This document shows, piece after piece, positions 5,182 to 34,972 of a stretch of DNA of 39,285 nucleotides. The position numbers and the translations under genes were made by a program. The stretch's first letter is position 1. Each line of letters starts with the position of its first letter. The stretch covers positions 1 through 39,285 of the forward strand of contig CAIUKU010000132.1 in NCBI GenBank assembly GCA_903899825.1. Reading direction: 5' to 3'. The stretch comes from an uncultured Bacteroidales bacterium. GTDB taxonomy: Bacteria; Bacteroidota; Bacteroidia; Bacteroidales; JACABE01. Below the pieces are notes generated by a model. It was not told where the DNA came from, searched no databases, and saw only the letters and a program-made list of their open reading frames with translations.

Positions 5182-6936
5182 CTATTGCAGCATTTTCAAA
5201 TAAGAAACTTCTTTTTCGCTTAAAAAGCGCCACATACCACGGGGAATGTCTTTCTTGGTAAGGCCTGCAAACATGGTTCTGTCGAGTTTTACTACTTCAT
5301 AACCCAGGGCTTCAAAAATACGACGGATTACACGGTTTTTGCCGGTATGAATTTCGATACCGATTTCCTTTTTATTTTGGGTTTCGTCAATATATGCAGC
5401 GTCGTCTACTTTTACGATGCCATCTTCCAGTTCAACACCTTCCCAGAGTCTGTCCATATCAGATTTAGACAATGCACGGTCCAGTTCAACATGGTATAAT
5501 TTTGTAACACCATAACGCGGATGCGTTAGTTTTTTAGCGATATCGCCATCGTTGGTAAAAAGCAGCAAGCCTGAAGTATTACGGTCGAGTCTGCCTACGG
5601 GATACAAACGTTCCTTACAGGCATCTTTTACCAATGCCATTACGGTACGTCTTTCCTGAGGATCGTCTACCGTTGTGATATAACCCTTAGGTTTGTTGAG
5701 CAATACGTATTTCTTTTTTTCACTTACCAGGGTTTCTCCACCATACTGAACGGAATCACCTGGAAGTACCTTGGTACCCAGTTCGGTAATAATCACACCA
5801 TTAATAGCCACAGCACCACTGATGATCAGATCATCGGCCTCACGGCGGGAACATATCCCTGCATTGGCGATGTATTTGTTCAAGCGAACCGGTCCGAAAG
5901 CATCAGGGCGGTTAGTGCTTTTAAAATTCTTTAATTCCAGTACATCTGCACGTTTTGGCCGTTCACGCACCGGCAGATCAATTTCCGATGTTCTGCGACG
6001 GGGCTTATTTTTGTGGAGGTAACGATCATTAGCGGGATCATTGTCATAACTTCTCCTTTTTTCTGAGAAAGGACGGTCGTCTTTTTGGTAACCTTTTTTA
6101 TAGTCTCTGGCAGGGTTTGAAGTCCCGCTATCACCTTCTCTTCTTGGTTTAAAATCCGTTTTATCCCCTCTGTCAATGTATGAAGGTTTGCTGTCTCTAT
6201 CTGAGAACTTAGGTTTAAAACTATTTTCTCTTTTATCTCCGTAAGCAGGTCTGTCGTCTCTATTAGGGTAGGATGGTCTGTCGGATGATGAATTACTTCT
6301 ATCTTCGTATCTTGGTCTATCCCCTCTGTCGCCAAAAGAAGGTTTGTTGTCTCTATCGCCAAACTTAGTTTTGAAACTACCTTCTCTTTTTTCTCCGTAT
6401 GCAGGTCTGTCGGATGATGAATTACTTCTTTCGCTGTATCTTGGTTTATCCCCTCTTTCACCATAGGAAGGTTTGCTGTCTCTGTCAGCGAACTTTGGTT
6501 TAAAACCGCCTTCTCTTTTATCTCCGTAAGCAGGTCTTTCGTCTCTTTTTGGATAGGAAGGTCTTTCGGAAGAAGTATTACTCCTATCGTTGTATCTTGG
6601 CTTATCCCCTCTTTCACCATAGGAAGGTTTGCTGTCTCTGTCACCAAACTTTGGTTTGTATCCACTTTCTCTTTTGTCACCATAAGCAGGTTTATCATAG
6701 GAGGGTCTGTCTGAGGATCTCTGATTACTTCCTCCGTATCCGGGCCTGTCTTCTTTACCGCGATAGGAAGGTTTATTGTCTCTGTCTCCGAATTTAGGTT
6801 TAAAAGAGGAGGATGGTCTGTCTGAAGATCCTTCGGATTTCTTTTTCCAATCCGGTTTCGAAAAATTTGATGAACTTTCTGAACGTCTGCTTCTTTCAGG
6901 TTTTCCAAAAGAGCGGTTATTGTTATTTCTTTCCAT
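5182..6936 (-). CDS. RluB/RsuA-family rRNA pseudouridine synthase with long disordered repeat tail
   Basis: The C-terminal ~240 residues form a standard enzyme: an S4 RNA-binding domain (VRLNKYIANAGICSRREADD) followed by the RsuA/RluB catalytic domain, with the active-site Asp in GRLDRNTSGLLLFTNDGD. It converts a uridine of large-subunit (or small-subunit) rRNA to pseudouridine. In front lie about 330 residues rich in Arg, Asp, Lys, Ser, Pro, Tyr and Gly, built from five tandem units that begin K-[PT]-K-F-x-D-R-D. The start is placed at 6936 (584 aa, MERNNNNRSF). An ATG at 6960 is in frame, but it falls inside the -7 box of a well-matched promoter (6958-6965), so it would lie upstream of the transcript. 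Basic, disordered extensions are common in Bacteroidota RluB proteins and probably help RNA binding. Confidence 0.9.
   Translation of the reverse strand: MERNNNNRSFGKPERSRRSESSSNFSKPDWKKKSEGSSDRPSSSFKPKFGDRDNKPSYRGKEDRPGYGGSNQRSSDRPSYDKPAYGDKRESGYKPKFGDRDSKPSYGERGDKPRYNDRSNTSSERPSYPKRDERPAYGDKREGGFKPKFADRDSKPSYGERGDKPRYSERSNSSSDRPAYGEKREGSFKTKFGDRDNKPSFGDRGDRPRYEDRSNSSSDRPSYPNRDDRPAYGDKRENSFKPKFSDRDSKPSYIDRGDKTDFKPRREGDSGTSNPARDYKKGYQKDDRPFSEKRRSYDNDPANDRYLHKNKPRRRTSEIDLPVRERPKRADVLELKNFKSTNRPDAFGPVRLNKYIANAGICSRREADDLIISGAVAINGVIITELGTKVLPGDSVQYGGETLVSEKKKYVLLNKPKGYITTVDDPQERRTVMALVKDACKERLYPVGRLDRNTSGLLLFTNDGDIAKKLTHPRYGVTKLYHVELDRALSKSDMDRLWEGVELEDGIVKVDDAAYIDETQNKKEIGIEIHTGKNRVIRRIFEALGYEVVKLDRTMFAGLTKKDIPRGMWRFLSEKEVSYLKMLQ
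6130..6810 (-). repeat. In-gene tandem repeat coding for 52/43-residue units
   Basis: About four full units and one partial unit are seen in the translated N-terminal tail of the pseudouridine synthase. Each starts K-[PT]-K-F-[GAS]-D-R-D-[SN]-K-P-S. Two clear units are 52 residues (156 bp) and one is 43 (129 bp), having lost the nine-residue SYPxRDxRP piece. The DNA copies are highly similar, so copy number probably varies between strains. Confidence 0.8.
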
Positions 6937-6957
6937 GATTTTTATAAAATGCGGCTG

Positions 6958-6990
6958 CAAAGGTAGGCATTTTTCCGGTAATTTCCTAAA
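6958..6990 (-). promoter_or_regulatory. Bacteroidota promoter for rluB; decides its start
   Basis: On the minus strand TACCTTTG (6958-6965) is an exact -7 match, with TTTA (6987-6990) 21 nt upstream as the -33 element. Transcription would begin near 6951, downstream of the first in-frame ATG (6960) and about 15 nt before the ATG at 6936. Confidence 0.6.
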
Positions 6991-24417: not shown

Positions 24418-24568
24418 TCTCCTTTTAGAGCCTTTCCCGATTTTTCATTGGGAAGAGGTTAGGGTGAGGTCGTGTTAATTTTGCAAAACTATTATTTTGT
24501 TTTTATGAAATTTTGGGCAGCTTAGCGTTTGGCTACAACCTCACCCCCGTCTCTCCTAAAAGGAGAGG
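24418..24568. repeat. REPIN-like inverted pair A of palindromic modules
   Basis: A forward module (24418-24474: hairpin remnants TCTCCTTTTAGAG and TTCCC/GGGAA, then GAGGTTAGGGTGAGGT) is followed by a reverse module (24531-24568: CTACAACCTCACCCCCG then CTCTCCTAAAAGGAGAG). Together they make a ~150-bp element with inverted ends around a spacer that begins TTAATTTTGCAAAACTATTA, the same spacer start as in pair B at 25382-25535. Confidence 0.7.
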
Positions 24569-24639
24569 TGCTACTGTACTGTAAATGTGACATATTAGTG
24601 CGTTGTAGTAAGCTTACTATTTTTACAAATGTATGAAAT
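24551..24639 (+). repeat. Direct repeat R1, left border of the DUF559 gene
   Basis: 89 bp that recur at 25101-25189. The block 24561-24590 (30 bases, from AGGAGAGGTGCTACTG to AAATGTGA) is identical in both, and most of the rest agrees (GTGCGTTGTAG, TTTTTACAAAT, TATGAAA). The copy ends 12 bp before the stop codon of the DUF559 gene. Confidence 0.85.
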
Positions 24640-24650
24640 TAATGGTAAAA

Positions 24651-25037
24651 TTATAGTGTATTCATATATTTTTCAATACCCTGTAAAACTCCAGCTATGT
24701 TTGTCATTACGCTTTTATTTTCAAAGCGAATTACCTTTAATCCAAGTTCATTCAGCTCATACGTTCTGTTTACATCTCTTTCATGTTGAATTTCCTGTAA
24801 ATGAACGCCACCATCAATTTCAATAACCAATTTCAATGTATGACAATAAAAATCTACGATAAATCGATTAATTGGATGCTGTCTTCTAAATTTTAAACCG
24901 TGAAACTGATTATTTTGAAGATATTGCCATAATTTCGTTTCTGCCACAGTCATGGTTTTCCTTAAAACACGGGCTCGTTTTATAATTTCTTCCGAAGCTC
25001 CGAAATAGAAATTTTCCTTGCCTTTTACGAATACCAT
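24651..25037 (-). CDS. DUF559 (Vsr-like) endonuclease-domain protein
   Basis: A 128-aa protein that is essentially one DUF559 domain, related to very-short-patch-repair endonucleases (PD-(D/E)XK fold). Hallmarks: ASEEIIKRARVLRKTMTVAETKLWQYL helix pair (14-40), KFRRQHPINRFIVDFYC (49-65) with Asp62, LVIEIDGGVH (70-79) with Glu73 and Asp75, and the closing GLKVIRFENKSV (99-110). All expected catalytic acids are present, so it is probably active; its DNA target is unknown. It is the only gene in 1.8 kb of palindromic repeats, bracketed by two 89-bp direct repeats. A TAACTTTG -7 match lies only 4 bp before the ATG, so the message may be almost leaderless. Confidence 0.9.
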   Translation of the reverse strand: MVFVKGKENFYFGASEEIIKRARVLRKTMTVAETKLWQYLQNNQFHGLKFRRQHPINRFIVDFYCHTLKLVIEIDGGVHLQEIQHERDVNRTYELNELGLKVIRFENKSVMTNIAGVLQGIEKYMNTL

Positions 25038-25041
25038 ACTA

Positions 25042-25049
25042 CAAAGTTA
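25042..25049 (-). promoter_or_regulatory. Candidate -7 element right at the DUF559 start
   Basis: TAACTTTG on the minus strand matches the -7 consensus, with TTTC 21 nt upstream (25071-25074). It ends 4 bp before the ATG, which would make a leaderless transcript; a chance match in AT-rich DNA is also possible. Confidence 0.33.
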
Positions 25050-25100
25050 AAATTATTTATTAAACAGTCAGAAAATTTGCAATTAGCTCTGCCAGAATTC

Positions 25101-25189
25101 CTCTCCTCTTAGGAGAGGTGCTACTGTACTGTAAATGTGATATGTTAGTGCGTTGTAGCAAAGTTTTTATTTTTTACAAATATATGAAA
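25101..25189 (+). repeat. Direct repeat R2, right border of the DUF559 gene
   Basis: Second copy of the 89-bp repeat at 24551-24639, with 30 identical bases at 25111-25140. Its palindrome (25100-25118) reads CCTCTCCTCTTAGGAGAGG. The two copies lie 550 bp apart with the endonuclease gene between them. Confidence 0.85.
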
Positions 25190-25303
25190 GTTTCTTTAAT
25201 GCAATAATATTTATAATTAGCTCTGTAAGAGTTCCTCTCCTTTTAGGAGAGGTTAGGTCGTGTCAATATTGCAAAACTATTTTTTTATGTCATTATGAGC
25301 AAT
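25150..25303 (+). repeat. Palindromic repeat unit 1 (154 bp)
   Basis: Starts GCGTTGTAGCAA, runs through TTTTTTACAAATATATGAAAG, AATGCAATAATATTTATAAT and TTAGCTCTG, then the perfect palindrome CCTCTCCTTTTAGGAGAGG (25234-25252), GTTAGGTCGTGT and ATTGCAAAACTATTTTTTTATG. The next unit begins directly. Confidence 0.85.
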
Positions 25304-25566
25304 GCGTTGTAGCAAGCTTATATTTTTTTACAAATGTATAATTTTTTTTAATGCAATAATATTTATAATTAACTCTGAGTTCCTCTCCTTTTAGGAGAGG
25401 TTAGGTGAGGTTGTCCAATTTTGCAAAACTATTATTTTGTTATTATGGCGTTATGGGCAATGGCGTTTTACTTAGGGTCAGTAAAAGTAGTAAGTACATT
25501 TGCAACCTCATCCCCGCTTCTCCTAAAAGGAGAAGAGTCAGATTCCCAGTAGTTTGGTATGTAAGT
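25304..25566 (+). repeat. Palindromic repeat unit 2 with inverted pair B
   Basis: Same order as unit 1: GCGTTGTAGCAAGCTTA, TTACAAATGTAT, AATGCAATAATATTTATAAT, then palindrome CCTCTCCTTTTAGGAGAGG at 25382-25400. After its GTTAGGTGAGGTTGT tail and spacer comes a reverse module (25502-25535: GCAACCTCATCCCCG and CTTCTCCTAAAAGGAGAAG). The 154-bp stretch 25382-25535 is thus a second inverted pair like 24418-24568. Confidence 0.85.
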
Positions 25567-25700
25567 GGGTTGTAGCAAGCTTAATATTTTTTACAAATGT
25601 ATGAAAGTTTTTTTAATGCAGTATTATTTATAATTAGCTCTGCTCTAACGCCTCTCCTTTTAGGAGAGGTTGGGTGAGGTTGTATAAAGTTTGCTCAAAT
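25567..25700 (+). repeat. Palindromic repeat unit 3
   Basis: GGGTTGTAGCAAGCTTA, TTTTTTACAAATGTATGAAAG, AATGCAGTATTATTTATAAT, TAGCTCTGCTCTAACG, then palindrome CCTCTCCTTTTAGGAGAGG at 25651-25669 and tail GTTGGGTGAGGTTGT. After this the similarity stops. Confidence 0.83.
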
Positions 25701-25810
25701 CAATCCTGAAAAAAGTACCCTTAATCCTCATTAAGAATCATAACAGGCTATCACCAGAAACCAGAATAGAGGTTCTCCTAATCAAATTTATCTTTATTTC
25801 AAAGCACTAA

Positions 25811-25897
25811 TATTTTAAAAAGCTCTGCTCTAACGCCTCTCATCTTAGGTTAGGTCGTGTTAATTTTGTATAACTATTATTTTCATGCCATTATATG
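25811..25897 (+). repeat. Degenerate palindromic repeat unit 4
   Basis: The 21 bases at 25821-25841 are identical to 25636-25656 in unit 3. The palindrome is broken (CCTCTCATCTTAGGTTAGG), but the tail GTCGTGTTAATTTTG and ACTATTATTTTCATGCCATTA still match the other copies. Confidence 0.75.
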
Positions 25898-25942
25898 CAG
25901 TGTACATCCTTTAAACAGAAGAAAGCAGGAAAAGAACAATGC

Positions 25943-29406: not shown

Positions 29407-32400
29407 TTATTTACTGCCCACTACCTCTATCCAATTTCCGGCATACCTTGCATTAATGGTATTGTCGTACATGGCTTCGCAACTTACTGTTGGTAAATAA
29501 AATTTTCCCAGATAGCTTGTATTGAGCATGATTTTAAAGGTTTTGGACTGATGCTGATTCAGGTCGAAATAGGTATAAACCCTGTCGTCGCGTATATCCT
29601 GGTAATTAAAGTAAGAAGCATTGGTATTGGATTGCGCAAATTCGCTCATACGTGCATTGAAAATCTCCCAGCCTGAAGGGAAAATCTGAGTCAAAGCCAG
29701 TTGTTTGTAAACACCTCTGCTTCCCGGATTGGTAACGCAGACTTCAACTGTAAAATTAGTCCCTTGTTCTAAGCTTGCCGGATTGATACGCTGCCCTGTC
29801 ATATTTTTATATTCAACTGTCATTTTCAAATCATTCTGAACAGAAGTTTTATCACCTGTTGCTGGAATTCCCTGTGTAACTACACGGGCATACAATATGT
29901 TTTTACCGGAATTACTTATTTGAACAATCCCCTTTTTTGTATTTTGCCTGACTCCTAAATCAGTTGTTGAAATCGATTTTTTAGTTTGAATCACTATAGC
30001 TTGGTTCCCATCGGCTTTATAGGAAATATTTATTCCAGAACCCGCAGCATCACCAGCAAACCTTGAAATAGCAATCAGACAATAAGCTGTGGATTGGGTA
30101 CTCATCCATTCGCTTTTACATAGCTGGGCAGAAATATCTCTCACCAGCGGAGCTGCTTTTGCTTTCTGGTTCATCAGACACAAACATTGTACTATCATGG
30201 CTTTGTCTCTTACATCCGAACCATAAGTGTACCAAAGTTCACGATAAGGCTTGATATAAGTTGGTGCATTGGCAATTAAATTTTTTGCAACTTCCGGTTT
30301 TCCGGCCAGCTGATAGGCTGCAGCCAACTGCCAGCGTGCAGTCAAAGAAAGTCCTTTGAATTCATACAATTTATTCATTGCTCCCAGTTCGGGAGATTTG
30401 GCAAGCGCCAGTGTATACAGGCGGTAAGCCTGGATAAGGTCATCATTATAATAGCTTGCATTGATTGACCAGCTTACAGCTTTTTGTTTCTGGTATTTTT
30501 TCCAGGCAGCGATGAAACCCATTGGCAATTGATAACCTTTCATTTCAGCTTCCAGCATAAAATGCCCGGCATAATTACTTCCCCAATCGTCAGCATATTG
30601 AGCACCCTCCCAATAACCCAGTCCACCATTGTTAAGCTGAAAAGACTTTAAACGCTGGATGGCTGCTTTGATGTTTTGTTCTGTTCTTGCTTTTTGATTG
30701 ACCGATAAATCAACCAAACCTGCAATATATAATTGCGGGAAAACAGTTGAGGTTGTTTGTTCTATACAACCATGCGGATATTCAATCAAATAGCTTAAGC
30801 GTTTTTCGAGATTTAACGGTGGAATGGAAGAAACTTCCATCTTTGCCTTATTAGTCCCTTGCATACCAATGAGCTGATAATTTGCATTCCAGGTTTTACC
30901 GGGTTGAATAATACTTTCAACCACATCTGTAACTTTAGGATTTGGATTGCGAATGTCAATTTCAATATCATGAACTGCTTTTTGGCTGCCACTTGTAGCA
31001 ATAATTTTAATTTTGCCAACACCTGTTATTTCTTTCACTTTCAATTCAAAATTAAGCATTTCATCGCCGGGTGTTTTAAATGTCAAACTTCGGGTGTTGC
31101 TTCCATTTATTGTAAATTGATTGTCAGCAATAATCTGTACTTTAACATCACGTATGGATTTTTCCATAGCAAAAACACTTACCGGTAGCTTTACCGTTTC
31201 ACCAGGACCGACAACCCTTGGCAAAGTACCCAGCACCATCAGAGGTTTACGAACAGCCACTGCTTTTTCGGCACATCCGTATTTGCCTTTGTCACCAGCA
31301 ACCACCATTACCCGAACCGAACCAACATATTGAGGCATTTTAAAACTATGGGTTTTTGATTGTCCTTTGCCCAATTCGAAGGGACCTAAGAATTTAACCA
31401 TTGGAATAAAACGGTTGGCTTTCAAGCTGCCTTTATTTAATCCTTCACCATCGCCGCCAATGCTCAAAATACGCTGTAATTCACCGGTGTAAGCTCCCAT
31501 TACCATATCAAACAAATCCCAGGTTTTAATTCCCAGTGCTTCGCGTGCATAAAATGCCAGCCAGGGGTTGGGTGTTTTAAACCTTGTTAAATCAAGCAAG
31601 CCTTCGTCCACAATGGCAAGGGTATAGGTCATCGGTTTCCCTTTTTCTTCTTTCACCGTGATGGATGCATGCTGTTCCGGGAGCAAGACATTTTTCATAG
31701 CAATTACAGGTGAAAGGTGTGTATTGGGATCTTCCACTAAAATAGGAAGGATGCCATACAAACGAATGGGCAAATCATTTACGGTTTGGGCATGCGGTTG
31801 AATCAAGGTCACATAGGCATAACAATTGGGCGCCATTTCTTCACTAACGTCAAAAACGAATTCTGTATTTCCTTGTTTCGTTGGGATCCAGAATGATTTT
31901 AATACTTTTGAACCGGTTTCCAGTGTAAGTAAAGCCCTTCCGTCAGCAGATGTCGGAATGGTAATTTTTACTTTTTCCCCGACATTGTATTTTTCTTTAT
32001 CTGCTGTAAAAGTAAGCATGGTAGCAGCTTGCTTTTCGCCACCGGGAGCACGGGAATAGCCATACCAATCAACATATACAACTTTTCCAGAACTATGCCC
32101 CGATTTTTGATCGGTTACTTTTATCAAATAACGTCCCCAATTGTCGTGATCAATATTAAGTTTATAAATTCCTTTTCCTCCTGTTGTTGAAATTGTTGAA
32201 GAATCTTTTAACTGACTGTAGGAAGTTGAAATAAAATCAGCCTGAGAACCCGATTCTGAATTGTCCCACCACCAGCGCCATTCAATTTTATACAATTCTA
32301 CCTTTAATTTGTTGGAAGGAACAATCATGCCATTGTAATCCAGATTCAACAAATTGACGGAATATGATTTATCGGTATACAACATCCGGTCATTGTTCGA

Positions 32401-34581
32401 ATTCTGTGGTACACTTATGCCGGCATAGCTCAGATAAGGATAATAAGGGAGTGTAAATCTGTCAACACTGAAGTCGCCACCTGCTTCAAATACAGTGGTT
32501 TCAAAATTGGCTTTCAACATACCCGGAGCAGCCGTTGTAATATTTATATCCGGGTTTATGATAGCTTTCCCCGATTCATCTAAGTTTCCGCTAAAAATAC
32601 TGATATTTTCTGAAGAAAATCCGGAACCTGGGTTATCAAAAATATAGTTTGGATATTTTTTAAAAGTAGTAGTTGAACGGCTTAGTGTAAGGTTTACTGT
32701 AGCTTTCAGGTTTCTAGCAATTGCACCGGTTAGCCAGTGGACTTCAAGATTTCCTCTTGCAGCATCATTCTTTATCAGGTATTCTTTCCCAAATCCAAAT
32801 TTAATTTTCAAACGATTGGGTTTAACCGTTTCGATCTTAAGATTTTTCTGAAATTCAACACCTCCAACCTTAACTTTTGCCTGCCAGTTGCCGGTGGCTG
32901 CATTGCGTTCTGTTGCGGTCCGGAAATCGTAAAATCCATTCATGGAAGTTGTTTTGATCATTCTTTTTACAATCTGACCATTGGGATTGATCAGGTCGAA
33001 AGTAACCGGATGGTTTCCGGGCAGTATTTTTTCTTTATCTTCTAAAATGAAAGTGAGATAGAGTGAATCTCCGGGACGCCAAACGCCACGTTCACCATAA
33101 ATAAATCCTTTTAGCCCTTTTTGAACAGTTTCTCCACTTACATCAAACATACTCAGTGATAAACTAGCGCCTTCCACCATTTTCAGATAGCCCCGCTGAT
33201 CATCTTTCTTTGCAATCAATACAAATGGTCTTCTTTTTAACTTGATTTCAGCCATTCCATCTTGATTGGTAGTAACACTTCCTAATAATTGCTGCTGATA
33301 ATCGTAAAATTCAACGCTGGCGTTGGAAATGGGATGGGTAGTTACCAGATTGGTAATATATACATTAAAATTTCCTGAACTGCCTGCTTTTGCAATAATA
33401 CCCAAATCGGAAGCCAACACATTGCGAATGACAGCTTTTTGATTATAATAAGATTTGTTACATGGATTATCACGCTGATCCCAATCGTAATCATAATATC
33501 CTTCATCATCATAATAATCACCATAATAGTAATTATCATAATACCAGCCGTCTTCTCTTTCATTGTCATCGTTCCATGAAACCAGGTCAATATCAGCACT
33601 TTCTGCTTCTCCTTCACATGCATAAGTTGAATATTGTTTTTTAAAACTTATTCGTACCGAGTAGATTGAACCTGCTTCTGTTTTGATAAGTTGAGAAAGA
33701 TCTATCGAAAAACGGTTCCATTTTCCATAATTTAGCACATTATTTAAAGGCATGGTCTTTTTAAGAACGGTTCGTCCAACTCTTGCCAGTTGCTCCTGAC
33801 CACTCAGGTCGTTTACCTGTAAAAACTGTATGATATTATTTTCATAAATACGGGTCACTTTTATATCAATAGCTTTCAGGTTAACTGCTTCAAAAGCTAA
33901 CATTAATCCATTGGAAGAAGGCATAATTACACCATTTCCGATAAAACGGACATTGGGTTTGATGTCTTCGAAAGTAATTTCTTTATTTAAAGTAAGTCCT
34001 AATGTCTCCCCGTTCATGTTCTTTACAGAAGATTCAATTGTAAGAGTAGCATCTCCTGATTTTTTAAGCGGTGGATAAATCCGCAATTCATTGTCTTCAA
34101 TTGCATACCGCAAATCCATTGATTTTGCAATTTTAATCAGTCCTTCAAGGTTCTGGTTTTCCATCAAAGGATCTGAGAATTGCACCAGTAAATATTGCTC
34201 CTGTCCTTCCACCAGTCTAACATTGGTTATTTTAAAATCACCTAAATTCGGTATCTCGACCGTTTGTTCTCCCTTGGTTTTTGCCTCAATTGGTTTCCCT
34301 TTATATGAAAGACATACAAAGCTTTTTGATTTCCCACGTACCACTGAATCAACCTGAAAATAATGTATTTTTTTTTGAGCATCATGCACCCAATTTATCG
34401 ACAATGGCTTGTCTCCCTGTTTGGCAGTTAAGACTTTTTCAATCTGCAAATCATCGGCTATATCAGCAGTATGTAGCGTCCCGTATAATTTTTCTAATGT
34501 TAAATCCGATTTATTATATGCTTTATGGTTTTCAATTTTGATTTCATAATCCTGTTGCATGGTTTGAAACTGAAATTCCAT
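29407..34581 (-). CDS. Alpha-2-macroglobulin family protein, main fragment (frameshifted from its N-terminus)
   Basis: This 1724-aa reading frame is a bacterial alpha-2-macroglobulin without its first ~130 residues. It has MG/MG2-type beta domains (about 1-800), a Tyr/Asp-rich low-complexity loop (about 325-370), the bait and MG7-10 region, and the thioester motif GCIEQTT with Cys1272, which starts an alpha-helical thioester domain (WEGAQYADDWGSNYAGHFMLEAEMKGY). Bacterial members trap proteases in the periplasm and are thought to protect the envelope. As read, it lacks any export signal; the missing signal anchor lies in the overlapping frame at 34544-34972. Deleting one A from an A6 run (34584-34589) would join both into one ~1854-aa protein. 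No pbpC gene follows, unlike the common a2m-pbpC pair. Confidence 0.85.
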   Translation of the reverse strand: MEFQFQTMQQDYEIKIENHKAYNKSDLTLEKLYGTLHTADIADDLQIEKVLTAKQGDKPLSINWVHDAQKKIHYFQVDSVVRGKSKSFVCLSYKGKPIEAKTKGEQTVEIPNLGDFKITNVRLVEGQEQYLLVQFSDPLMENQNLEGLIKIAKSMDLRYAIEDNELRIYPPLKKSGDATLTIESSVKNMNGETLGLTLNKEITFEDIKPNVRFIGNGVIMPSSNGLMLAFEAVNLKAIDIKVTRIYENNIIQFLQVNDLSGQEQLARVGRTVLKKTMPLNNVLNYGKWNRFSIDLSQLIKTEAGSIYSVRISFKKQYSTYACEGEAESADIDLVSWNDDNEREDGWYYDNYYYGDYYDDEGYYDYDWDQRDNPCNKSYYNQKAVIRNVLASDLGIIAKAGSSGNFNVYITNLVTTHPISNASVEFYDYQQQLLGSVTTNQDGMAEIKLKRRPFVLIAKKDDQRGYLKMVEGASLSLSMFDVSGETVQKGLKGFIYGERGVWRPGDSLYLTFILEDKEKILPGNHPVTFDLINPNGQIVKRMIKTTSMNGFYDFRTATERNAATGNWQAKVKVGGVEFQKNLKIETVKPNRLKIKFGFGKEYLIKNDAARGNLEVHWLTGAIARNLKATVNLTLSRSTTTFKKYPNYIFDNPGSGFSSENISIFSGNLDESGKAIINPDINITTAAPGMLKANFETTVFEAGGDFSVDRFTLPYYPYLSYAGISVPQNSNNDRMLYTDKSYSVNLLNLDYNGMIVPSNKLKVELYKIEWRWWWDNSESGSQADFISTSYSQLKDSSTISTTGGKGIYKLNIDHDNWGRYLIKVTDQKSGHSSGKVVYVDWYGYSRAPGGEKQAATMLTFTADKEKYNVGEKVKITIPTSADGRALLTLETGSKVLKSFWIPTKQGNTEFVFDVSEEMAPNCYAYVTLIQPHAQTVNDLPIRLYGILPILVEDPNTHLSPVIAMKNVLLPEQHASITVKEEKGKPMTYTLAIVDEGLLDLTRFKTPNPWLAFYAREALGIKTWDLFDMVMGAYTGELQRILSIGGDGEGLNKGSLKANRFIPMVKFLGPFELGKGQSKTHSFKMPQYVGSVRVMVVAGDKGKYGCAEKAVAVRKPLMVLGTLPRVVGPGETVKLPVSVFAMEKSIRDVKVQIIADNQFTINGSNTRSLTFKTPGDEMLNFELKVKEITGVGKIKIIATSGSQKAVHDIEIDIRNPNPKVTDVVESIIQPGKTWNANYQLIGMQGTNKAKMEVSSIPPLNLEKRLSYLIEYPHGCIEQTTSTVFPQLYIAGLVDLSVNQKARTEQNIKAAIQRLKSFQLNNGGLGYWEGAQYADDWGSNYAGHFMLEAEMKGYQLPMGFIAAWKKYQKQKAVSWSINASYYNDDLIQAYRLYTLALAKSPELGAMNKLYEFKGLSLTARWQLAAAYQLAGKPEVAKNLIANAPTYIKPYRELWYTYGSDVRDKAMIVQCLCLMNQKAKAAPLVRDISAQLCKSEWMSTQSTAYCLIAISRFAGDAAGSGINISYKADGNQAIVIQTKKSISTTDLGVRQNTKKGIVQISNSGKNILYARVVTQGIPATGDKTSVQNDLKMTVEYKNMTGQRINPASLEQGTNFTVEVCVTNPGSRGVYKQLALTQIFPSGWEIFNARMSEFAQSNTNASYFNYQDIRDDRVYTYFDLNQHQSKTFKIMLNTSYLGKFYLPTVSCEAMYDNTINARYAGNWIEVVGSK

Positions 34582-34972
34582 CGTTTTTTAATGAATCCGG
34601 CACTTTTAACAATTTTGACAAATAAAATTCCACTTCATAGAATTTTCTGGGTGGTAATTTTGTTTCGGGACAAAACTCAATGGTCCGGCTATCCAACCAG
34701 ATAGCTTTGCCTTTGATGGAAGGTTTAAAACTGAATAATTTTTCTGTTACCGGAGTTCCGAATAAGGATGAATCAGCGTAATCGTTGACCAATCGAACTT
34801 TTACAGTGGTATGGGTAGATACCACACCCGATGTAAATGCCTGAACATACTCTTTAAAAGCAGGATTAACTCTTTTGAAATGATGCTTATGTGTAGCTAT
34901 TTTATAAACTACAAAAGCAAGTACTACCACAGTAATTACTGTAGCAGCAATCTGGATGGTTTTTTTTCTCAT
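34544..34972 (-). CDS. N-terminal fragment of the alpha-2-macroglobulin (frameshift)
   Basis: This 142-aa frame holds the export anchor (hydrophobic residues 7-26) and the first domain of the same protein: FKEYVQAFTSGVVSTHTTVKVRL, FSFKPSIKGKAIWLDSRTIEFCPE and FYEVEFYLSKLLKVPDSLK all read like the N-terminus of Bacteroidota alpha-2-macroglobulins. After Lys129 the frame runs 13 unrelated residues to a stop, overlapping the main fragment by 38 bp in a different frame. The join at an A6 run points to a one-base mutation or a sequencing/assembly error; a working gene in most cells cannot be excluded. Confidence 0.8.
   Translation of the reverse strand: MRKKTIQIAATVITVVVLAFVVYKIATHKHHFKRVNPAFKEYVQAFTSGVVSTHTTVKVRLVNDYADSSLFGTPVTEKLFSFKPSIKGKAIWLDSRTIEFCPETKLPPRKFYEVEFYLSKLLKVPDSLKNDGISVSNHATGL

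Follow-up and report, generated by a model that had tools for sequence, protein, structure and literature searches.

The window, by which we mean the whole 39,285-nucleotide stretch analysed here, comes from an uncultured Bacteroidales bacterium and carries a small DUF559 nuclease gene within a cluster of short palindromic units (Table 1). A preliminary description had singled out two 89-bp direct repeats with 30 identical bases and the nuclease gene between them, and this much holds: the copies lie where they were placed, agree at 68 of 89 bases when aligned without gaps, have a longest identical run of exactly 30 and enclose a single gene. Chance similarity of the pair is excluded by BLAST (86.5% identity, E 4e-23). 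What had been overlooked is a larger cluster, in which the 89-bp pair represents two of at least six copies of a palindrome module. The six palindromes have arms of 7-8 bases and share the form CCTCTCC-loop-GGAGAGG, that is, a C/T arm and then a G/A arm. Further repeat blocks of 119-154 bp emerge from self-BLAST at about 84-86% identity, and degenerate units near 24425-24475 and 25830-25885 are counted within the cluster. Units occur in both orientations, since ACAACCTCACCCCCG precedes the left palindrome and GGTGAGGTTGT trails several of the right-hand ones; the left-end outer tail recurs as an inverted pair at a locus of another genome of the family (L046 of G107). The sequence CTCTCCTNNNAGGAGAGG has seven sites in the genome, five of them inside the cluster. 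Between the repeats the DUF559 gene stands alone, with no transposase gene of the DDE, serine or tyrosine type.

Table 1. Features of the palindrome cluster and its nuclease gene, in window coordinates.
Feature	Position	Strand	Basis
DUF559 (PF04480) nuclease gene, 128 aa, relative of E. coli YcjD	24651..25037	-	PF04480, E 2.4e-36
Left 89-bp direct repeat copy, starting with palindrome CTCTCCTAAAAGGAGAG	24551..24639	+	self-comparison
Right 89-bp direct repeat copy, starting with palindrome CCTCTCCTCTTAGGAGAGG at 25100-25118	25101..25189	+	self-comparison
Left-end outer tail ACAACCTCACCCCCG, inverted counterpart of the right-side GGTGAGGTTGT tails	24535..24549	+	read from sequence
Palindrome unit CCTCTCCTTTTAGGAGAGG, then GTTAGGTCGTG	25234..25252		palindrome search
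Palindrome unit CCTCTCCTTTTAGGAGAGG, then TTAGGTGAGGTTGT	25382..25400		palindrome search
Palindrome unit CTTCTCCTAAAAGGAGAAG in left-end orientation, CAACCTCATCCCCG before it	25517..25535		palindrome search
Palindrome unit CCTCTCCTTTTAGGAGAGG, then TTGGGTGAGGTTGT	25651..25669		palindrome search
Entire repeat cluster	24420..25905		repeat families D1-D10, self-BLAST, synteny

The cluster sits at a synteny breakpoint between an AspS / T9SS / p113 block and a TPR / VWA / thioredoxin block. Its left neighbours, a T9SS protein and a 113-aa protein, stay adjacent in three genomes of the same genus (G149, G150 and G151), together with AspS in G149 and G151, and no palindromes were found in the roughly 1 kb that follows them in these three. 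The right neighbour, a 601-aa TPR protein, lies elsewhere in G149, G151 and the family member G107, again without palindromes. Because the left neighbours stay together and the right one is elsewhere, synteny breaks exactly at the cluster, which among the genomes compared (G149, G150, G151 and G107) belongs to this lineage only. An empty site holding a single 89-bp copy, as had been predicted, did not turn up at the orthologous place in any of these four genomes, and the break in synteny makes such a site unobtainable here. A copy of about 90 bp that adjoins no DUF559 gene is present elsewhere in the window genome (G000:C34:7467-7555, 89% identity); it is compatible with either loss by recombination or solo insertion, and a clean empty counterpart was not obtained.

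In the same genus, the DUF559 genes of G149 (79% identity, L054) and G150 occupy other places than the window locus. Their palindromes read CCTCCCC..GGGGAGG as against CCTCTCC..GGAGAGG in the window, with matched changes in both arms. The G150 gene is bracketed by 116-bp direct repeats of 95.7% identity and sits within an RHS gene, which it truncates and which adjoins intact RHS paralogues; a fragment of the host gene is repeated within the 116-bp repeats. Long direct repeats also bracket a DUF559 gene in G080. The idea that the gene is carried between module copies is supported by this recurrence of the layout at unrelated sites in G150 and G080. The 89-bp pair itself consists of flanking unit copies, amounting to less than a whole module, and is part of an element family. 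We also note that RHS proteins of G150 contain an in-frame palindrome of the same kind near their N-terminus (ITSPFRGSRDGV; L263 5311-5346 and paralogues).

The window protein matches PF04480 at 124.4 bits, against a curated cut-off of 20.6, and its only other Pfam match is PF18741; it is a DUF559 protein, and no HUH-Y1 tyrosine transposase was found. Relative to its G150 homologue (dN 0.23, dS 1.24), it is under purifying selection. Residues E33, Q53, D62, E73, D75, H79 and D88 are conserved. An AlphaFold model (pLDDT 88, pTM 0.83) retrieves by Foldseek, in this order, NGO0050 (3hrl), I-Bth0305I, AbaSI, PvuRts1I and Vsr (1vsr, E 0.04, TM 0.54/0.52), and a sequence profile search returns the same first relatives. 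The closest solved fold outside DUF559 is I-Bth0305I (PDB 3r3p; Foldseek E 3e-4, profile E 2.6e-4). The nuclease is thus predicted, on this modelling, to adopt a fold of the Vsr / PD-(D/E)XK type. In earlier work, a YcjD profile detects Vsr (PMC1189080). A Caulobacter DUF559 protein has been proposed as a Vsr-like mismatch-repair enzyme, which is another function than the one favoured below, and tied to DNA damage in cells without a cytosine methylase (PMC12907096).

The association between this gene family and palindromes extends far beyond the window. We took 57 DUF559 loci from GTDB genomes, picked solely by similarity to the window protein and with repeats disregarded, that span Bacteroidota, Planctomycetota, Alphaproteobacteria, Spirochaetota, Patescibacteria and other groups. 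At these loci, palindromes of the C/T-then-G/A type reach a density of 4.1 per kb within 150 bp of the gene, compared with 0.04 per kb at 4-10 kb, and none in the reverse order (G/A then C/T) lies within 2 kb. Counted out to 400 bp, 31 of the 57 loci have palindromes to the left and right of the gene and 19 have them on one side, whereas 342 displaced control positions yield 0 and 14, respectively. For the density counts and the Y1_Tnp comparison below, we required arms of at least 7 bases with 90% pyrimidine; for the both-side and one-side counts and the 128-element set that follows, arms of at least 6 bases with 85% pyrimidine.

Within the order of the window genome, DUF559 is present in 59 of 149 genomes, and standalone genes have palindromes on both sides in 31 of 56 cases and on one side in 21. 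The loci of the order come from the 30 best genomes, taken automatically, from 20 added stretches, mostly of multi-copy genomes, and from others included later; fragments were skipped and L258, a duplicate of L054, was removed before counting. In the set of 128 elements, palindromes flank the gene on both sides in 71 and on one side in 45, and 12 have none within 400 bp. Plasmids behave alike: ten loci, sampled from 43 plasmid records with a DUF559 match and coming from cyanobacteria, Deinococcus, Azospirillum and sphingomonads, all have at least one unit within 500 bp or overlapping the gene. An array-like expansion is seen at L114 of G119, where seven near-identical palindromes, several about 98 bp apart, flank one DUF559 gene on both sides.

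At the level of whole genomes the link is weaker than it is locally. The CCTCTCC family is present in 22 of 58 DUF559-positive and 11 of 90 DUF559-negative genomes (Fisher p 0.0005, not corrected for kinship), and among the 45 genomes without Y1_Tnp the link is not significant. Thus 11 of 33 genomes with the CCTCTCC..GGAGAGG family give no DUF559 match. G086, for example, has 20 such palindromes and no DUF559 match; either the nuclease has been lost or another enzyme spreads them.

Palindromes go with the element rather than with the genome. Left-right palindrome similarity within an element is 0.72 (71 elements with both sides), compared with 0.41 for different elements within one genome and 0.31 for elements from different genomes, and none of 2000 shuffles reaches the within-element value, the maximum being 0.39. 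One genome (G026) has four kinds of DUF559 gene, each paired with its own unit. Palindrome similarity also correlates with nuclease similarity, at r 0.42 for the 111 elements of the tree set that have a palindrome on at least one side and at r 0.15 for 64 elements of the same order (0 of 2000 permutations in both tests), and does so chiefly where the proteins are more than 60% identical. The tree, made by a quick method, has 122 domains and 57 open forks; six of the 128 elements, whose domains are shorter than 80 aa, were excluded from it and from the residue count given below. The other origin offered in the preliminary description, in which the gene simply inserted between two pre-existing module copies, is rejected, because the palindromes match their own nuclease gene and not the genome.

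RAYTs could in principle move the units, since RAYT-family genes are common in the same genomes, Y1_Tnp being found in 103 of 148 genomes of the order. In nine genomes having both gene types, however, pyrimidine-purine palindromes occur within 3 kb at 0 of 20 Y1_Tnp loci, compared with 5.7 per kb within 150 bp at 19 DUF559 loci. Palindromes of mixed composition show the reverse, with many close to Y1_Tnp loci, unlike DUF559 loci. In addition, G048, G064 and G123 have DUF559 genes with palindromes and no Y1_Tnp match. As none of the 20 Y1_Tnp loci carries this palindrome type, we rejected RAYT as the partner of the units.

Elements end sharply, and at unrelated sites. In G048, two sister DUF559 genes lie in unrelated genes, one for HsdR and one for a type III-like methylase, and the elements are alike over about 540 bp, with a left limit at ATTCCCCTCCnnnGGAGGGG and a right limit at GGAGGGGAA. 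Two related elements, one within a type ISP gene (G080) and one intergenic (G054), end at the same units; inside the unit is a second small hairpin, both arms of which vary across the four elements. Two Deinococcus plasmids have the DUF559 gene in their hpa operon at different positions, each vacant in the other plasmid. D. psychrotolerans and D. proteolyticus have two elements with long, near-perfect inverted ends, the outer parts of which are not shared between the elements. Read by eye, unit tails are GGGTGAGGT-like or GGGGTGGT-like, and their orientation varies by family, pointing outward in some and inward in others, unlike a simple transposon end. No clear target-site duplication was seen when the ends, including one filled/empty pair, were compared by eye. 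We also observed that L284 of G080, which encodes the type ISP enzyme with a DUF559 element, has solo in-frame FPSLGGVPEGRG-like units at two further places, one of them in triplicate.

Many elements reside in frame within genes for enzymes, including leucyl-tRNA synthetase (LeuRS), the methionine synthase MetH, HsdR, HsdM and other restriction-modification enzymes, and their palindromes come with them. The inserts are in frame and open, so palindromes are translated, for example as LTPALSKGEG or SFGEDLGEV. When order-wide DUF559 matches at E<=1e-24 are restricted to frames of more than 600 codons, all 12 fall in LeuRS (seven) or restriction-modification enzymes (five). The host gene of about 1100 aa is LeuRS; an identity as IleRS was rejected. 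No intein families appear among the Pfam matches (E 1e-5) of eight host proteins.

Of 148 genomes of the order, 146 have a LeuRS match. The first insertion site in LeuRS is occupied, as read by sequence, in G000, G002, G019, G053, G065, G076 and G119. The same is true of G149, G150, G151, a Tannerella and one more Bacteroidota genome; G030 and G144 were assigned to it by position only. Three genomes of the same family (G133, G121 and G107) have shorter, ordinary LeuRS frames with no DUF559 match there. In the window genome, G000, there is no second LeuRS match, so the interrupted gene seems to be its sole copy. A Paludibacter genome has an element in MetH, the nuclease of which groups with those borne by LeuRS, and HsdR is occupied just before the Walker A motif in one Bacteroidota and one Planctomycetota genome. 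Catalytic-type acidic and histidine residues are retained in 16 of 18 embedded domains and in nearly all of 104 others; the LeuRS-borne copies of G000 and G149 have lost the conserved residues. Separately, a second, strongly diverged DUF559-like LeuRS insert follows QG(M/K)IQGRS..YR in G035, G081, G101, G045, G058 and G076 (L197, L198, L199, L202, L204 and L045) and is perhaps an old, domesticated element.

Units also occur without the gene. Sites of the CCTCTCC..GGAGAGG form number 14 in the window genome, 59 in G107 and 38 in G024. In the window genome, HsdR contains an in-frame solo unit just before Walker A, reading FPSLSFGEGRGEV; the G150 orthologue, 81% identical, lacks the unit and reads ASGINGDKRGG, and the two constitute one filled/empty pair for a solo unit. 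In G150 and G151, the LeuRS-borne elements have ends to which this HsdR unit is 94% identical.

A similar picture is found in E. coli K-12, where ycjD (NC_000913.3 1351407-1351760; L330 1908-2261) has one C/T-then-G/A unit nearby and dispersed copies of the same unit are located elsewhere. Across 5426 E. coli genomes, ycjD is present in 3365 and the ycjD-type unit in 5357, with 1-25 places in each (median 14). In the tktB-ypfG interval of five strains, two carry the unit and three have another repeat, which we take to be REP. In NJS001, the one ycjD-lacking strain that we followed, an efflux operon occupies the fabI-sapF interval, which is therefore a replacement and not a clean empty site. 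A published account likewise has ycjD as the gene that replaces eefRABCD (PMC12817139).

We think it likely that the window holds a cluster of palindromic units together with their own nuclease gene, that is, a selfish, mobile element that resembles REP/RAYT systems and uses a Vsr-type nuclease. Mobility of DUF559 elements is well supported. From the tight pairing, the residue conservation and the fold, we infer that DUF559 cuts the unit and that cutting drives copying. Element ends are hairpin-forming units, each with a C/T-rich arm, a G/A-rich arm and a GGGTGAGGT- or GGGGTGGT-like tail, usually flanking the gene on both sides. The nuclease may recognize its own unit, either in hairpin form or as a site with two-fold symmetry, and nick or cut the DNA there, whereupon repair would copy the unit to a new place, with the gene included or left behind. 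Units copied alone would become dispersed, REP-like repeats, and units copied with the gene new full elements. In-frame units could persist inside genes, essential ones included, because they are short and tolerated as open reading frame, and within genes the nuclease may act like a homing endonuclease, decaying later.

More than one other account of the palindromes deserves consideration. They could be the target, with DUF559 genes landing in pre-existing repeats, as some insertion sequences do in REPs, and other enzymes such as RAYTs spreading those repeats. The wide distribution of Y1_Tnp in the order and the CCTCTCC-family genomes without a DUF559 match are compatible with this, as are the differing outer arms of the Deinococcus elements, which insertion into different hairpins would give. 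Yet we find the idea unlikely, given that DUF559 genes sharing a genome differ in their palindromes, left and right ones matching in each case, that palindrome similarity tracks nuclease similarity, that RAYT loci of the same genomes are without these palindromes (0 of 20) and that three genomes have palindromes at DUF559 and no Y1_Tnp match. The presence of close relatives in unrelated places (LeuRS and MetH, or HsdR and a methylase in one genome), the different positions in the Deinococcus hpa operon and the dispersal of solo units argue against pure homing, in which DUF559 would be specific for fixed sites (the LeuRS loop and the pre-Walker-A loop of HsdR, for example), with the palindromes as co-converted passengers or recombination aids. 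Such homing does fit the repeated occupation of one LeuRS position across several families, close relatives being free of the insert, and that of one HsdR position in two phyla, where the window genome has a solo unit. It also fits the presence of the homing endonuclease I-Bth0305I among the nearest solved structures, and a decay stage would account for the degenerate motif of the LeuRS-borne copies in G000 and G149. On balance, we regard it as distinctly improbable.

We give even less credence to a regulatory role, in which the palindromes would be terminator or attenuator hairpins limiting a possibly harmful nuclease, the gene itself being an ordinary accessory mismatch-repair or restriction enzyme. 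In its favour are the hairpins closely flanking the gene and the link of the Caulobacter protein to DNA damage in the absence of a cytosine methylase (PMC12907096). Against this, units are also dispersed alone, up to 59 in G107 and with a median of 14 in E. coli genomes, and the sequence matching on both sides of the gene would be needless for a terminator. Solo units in frame in coding regions without any DUF559 further disfavour an exclusively regulatory function.

The mobile element that we favour invites comparison above all with REP/RAYT systems (TnpA-REP, or 'REPtrons'), in which, in the accessible descriptions, RAYTs are HUH-Y1 enzymes and REPs are GTAG-tagged (PMC3733652; PMC8266576). 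As far as those sources describe them, both have short palindromic units that occur on either side of a small nuclease-type gene, frequently in inverted pairs, and elsewhere on their own; in both, nuclease and repeats match family by family and intragenic copies exist. Unlike REP/RAYT, the elements described here have a DUF559 gene with a Vsr-type fold and a strictly C/T-then-G/A palindrome, and RAYT-family loci of the same genomes are without this palindrome, unlike DUF559 loci. By eye, the tails look GGGTGAGGT- or GGGGTGGT-like, REPs being recognized by a GTAG or CGTC tag at the base of the stem.

We know of no palindromes that flank I-Bth0305I and of no nuclease associated with the Rickettsia palindromic elements, which appear longer than DUF559 units (~33-45 bp). 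I-Bth0305I has a related fold, and DUF559 elements recur at fixed sites in conserved genes; it is named a mobile intron protein in the PDB (3r3p), whereas the eight DUF559 host proteins checked are without a Pfam intein domain. The Rickettsia elements likewise place palindromic repeats in frame inside protein-coding genes (cited in PMC3733652). ShiLan-type insertions, in which a hidden HNH endonuclease lies in a phage methylase, are similarly open, non-splicing and endonuclease-bearing insertions within a host enzyme gene; their HNH is read out of frame and their host is a phage, with palindromic ends unmentioned in the accessible text, whereas DUF559 is in frame with the host enzyme (PMC11855218). 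WHO / HO elements of yeast resemble ours in splicing-free homing into a conserved enzyme gene, cluster build-up and transposition to other loci; they differ in their nuclease, an intein-zinc finger fusion, and palindromic units are unmentioned in the text available (PMC7282813). E. coli YcjD and N. gonorrhoeae NGO0050 (3hrl) belong to the same protein family as the window protein. In the literature searched, and as far as its text was accessible, YcjD is treated solely as a predicted nuclease (PMC1189080) or as replacing eefRABCD, in the latter case with repeats unmentioned (PMC12817139). We found no published description of the DUF559-palindrome pairing in the open-access literature, subscription papers and preprints being outside the scope of the search.

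By the features tested, DUF559 elements combine a REP/RAYT-like anatomy with homing-like recurrent sites and are members of neither class. We are evenly divided over a broader proposal, that they form a separate, phylum-spanning class of selfish elements, the counterpart of REP/RAYT built from an unrelated enzyme, in which the nuclease recognizes its own polypyrimidine-polypurine hairpin and spreads the unit and itself, able to live in frame even in essential enzymes such as LeuRS and MetH. The K-12 gene ycjD and the CCCTCACCCTAACCCTCTCCCC units dispersed in its genome would then be a resident member.

Such a class would have several implications. If DUF559 is the autonomous partner of hairpin repeats, a widespread domain of unknown function would gain a role and a large set of short bacterial repeats an explanation. 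It would also be a second solution to the problem that RAYTs solve by HUH chemistry, and, as this solution comes from an unrelated nuclease fold, the two could be compared side by side where a genome has both. With elements in frame in LeuRS, MetH and restriction enzymes, one would have non-splicing selfish DNA resident in essential proteins, its decay stages open to study. Sharp pairing between nuclease and unit would offer a start for new sequence-specific nicking enzymes, and the E. coli K-12 member, ycjD, makes the question directly testable.

Finally, we note two other genes of the window, their families assigned by reading. The overlapping frames at 29407-34581 and 34544-34972 (minus strand) are apparently one large alpha-2-macroglobulin-like gene with a frameshift near 34550, and the frame at 5182-6960 (minus strand) encodes a pseudouridine-synthase-like protein with a long, repetitive, charged N-terminus.
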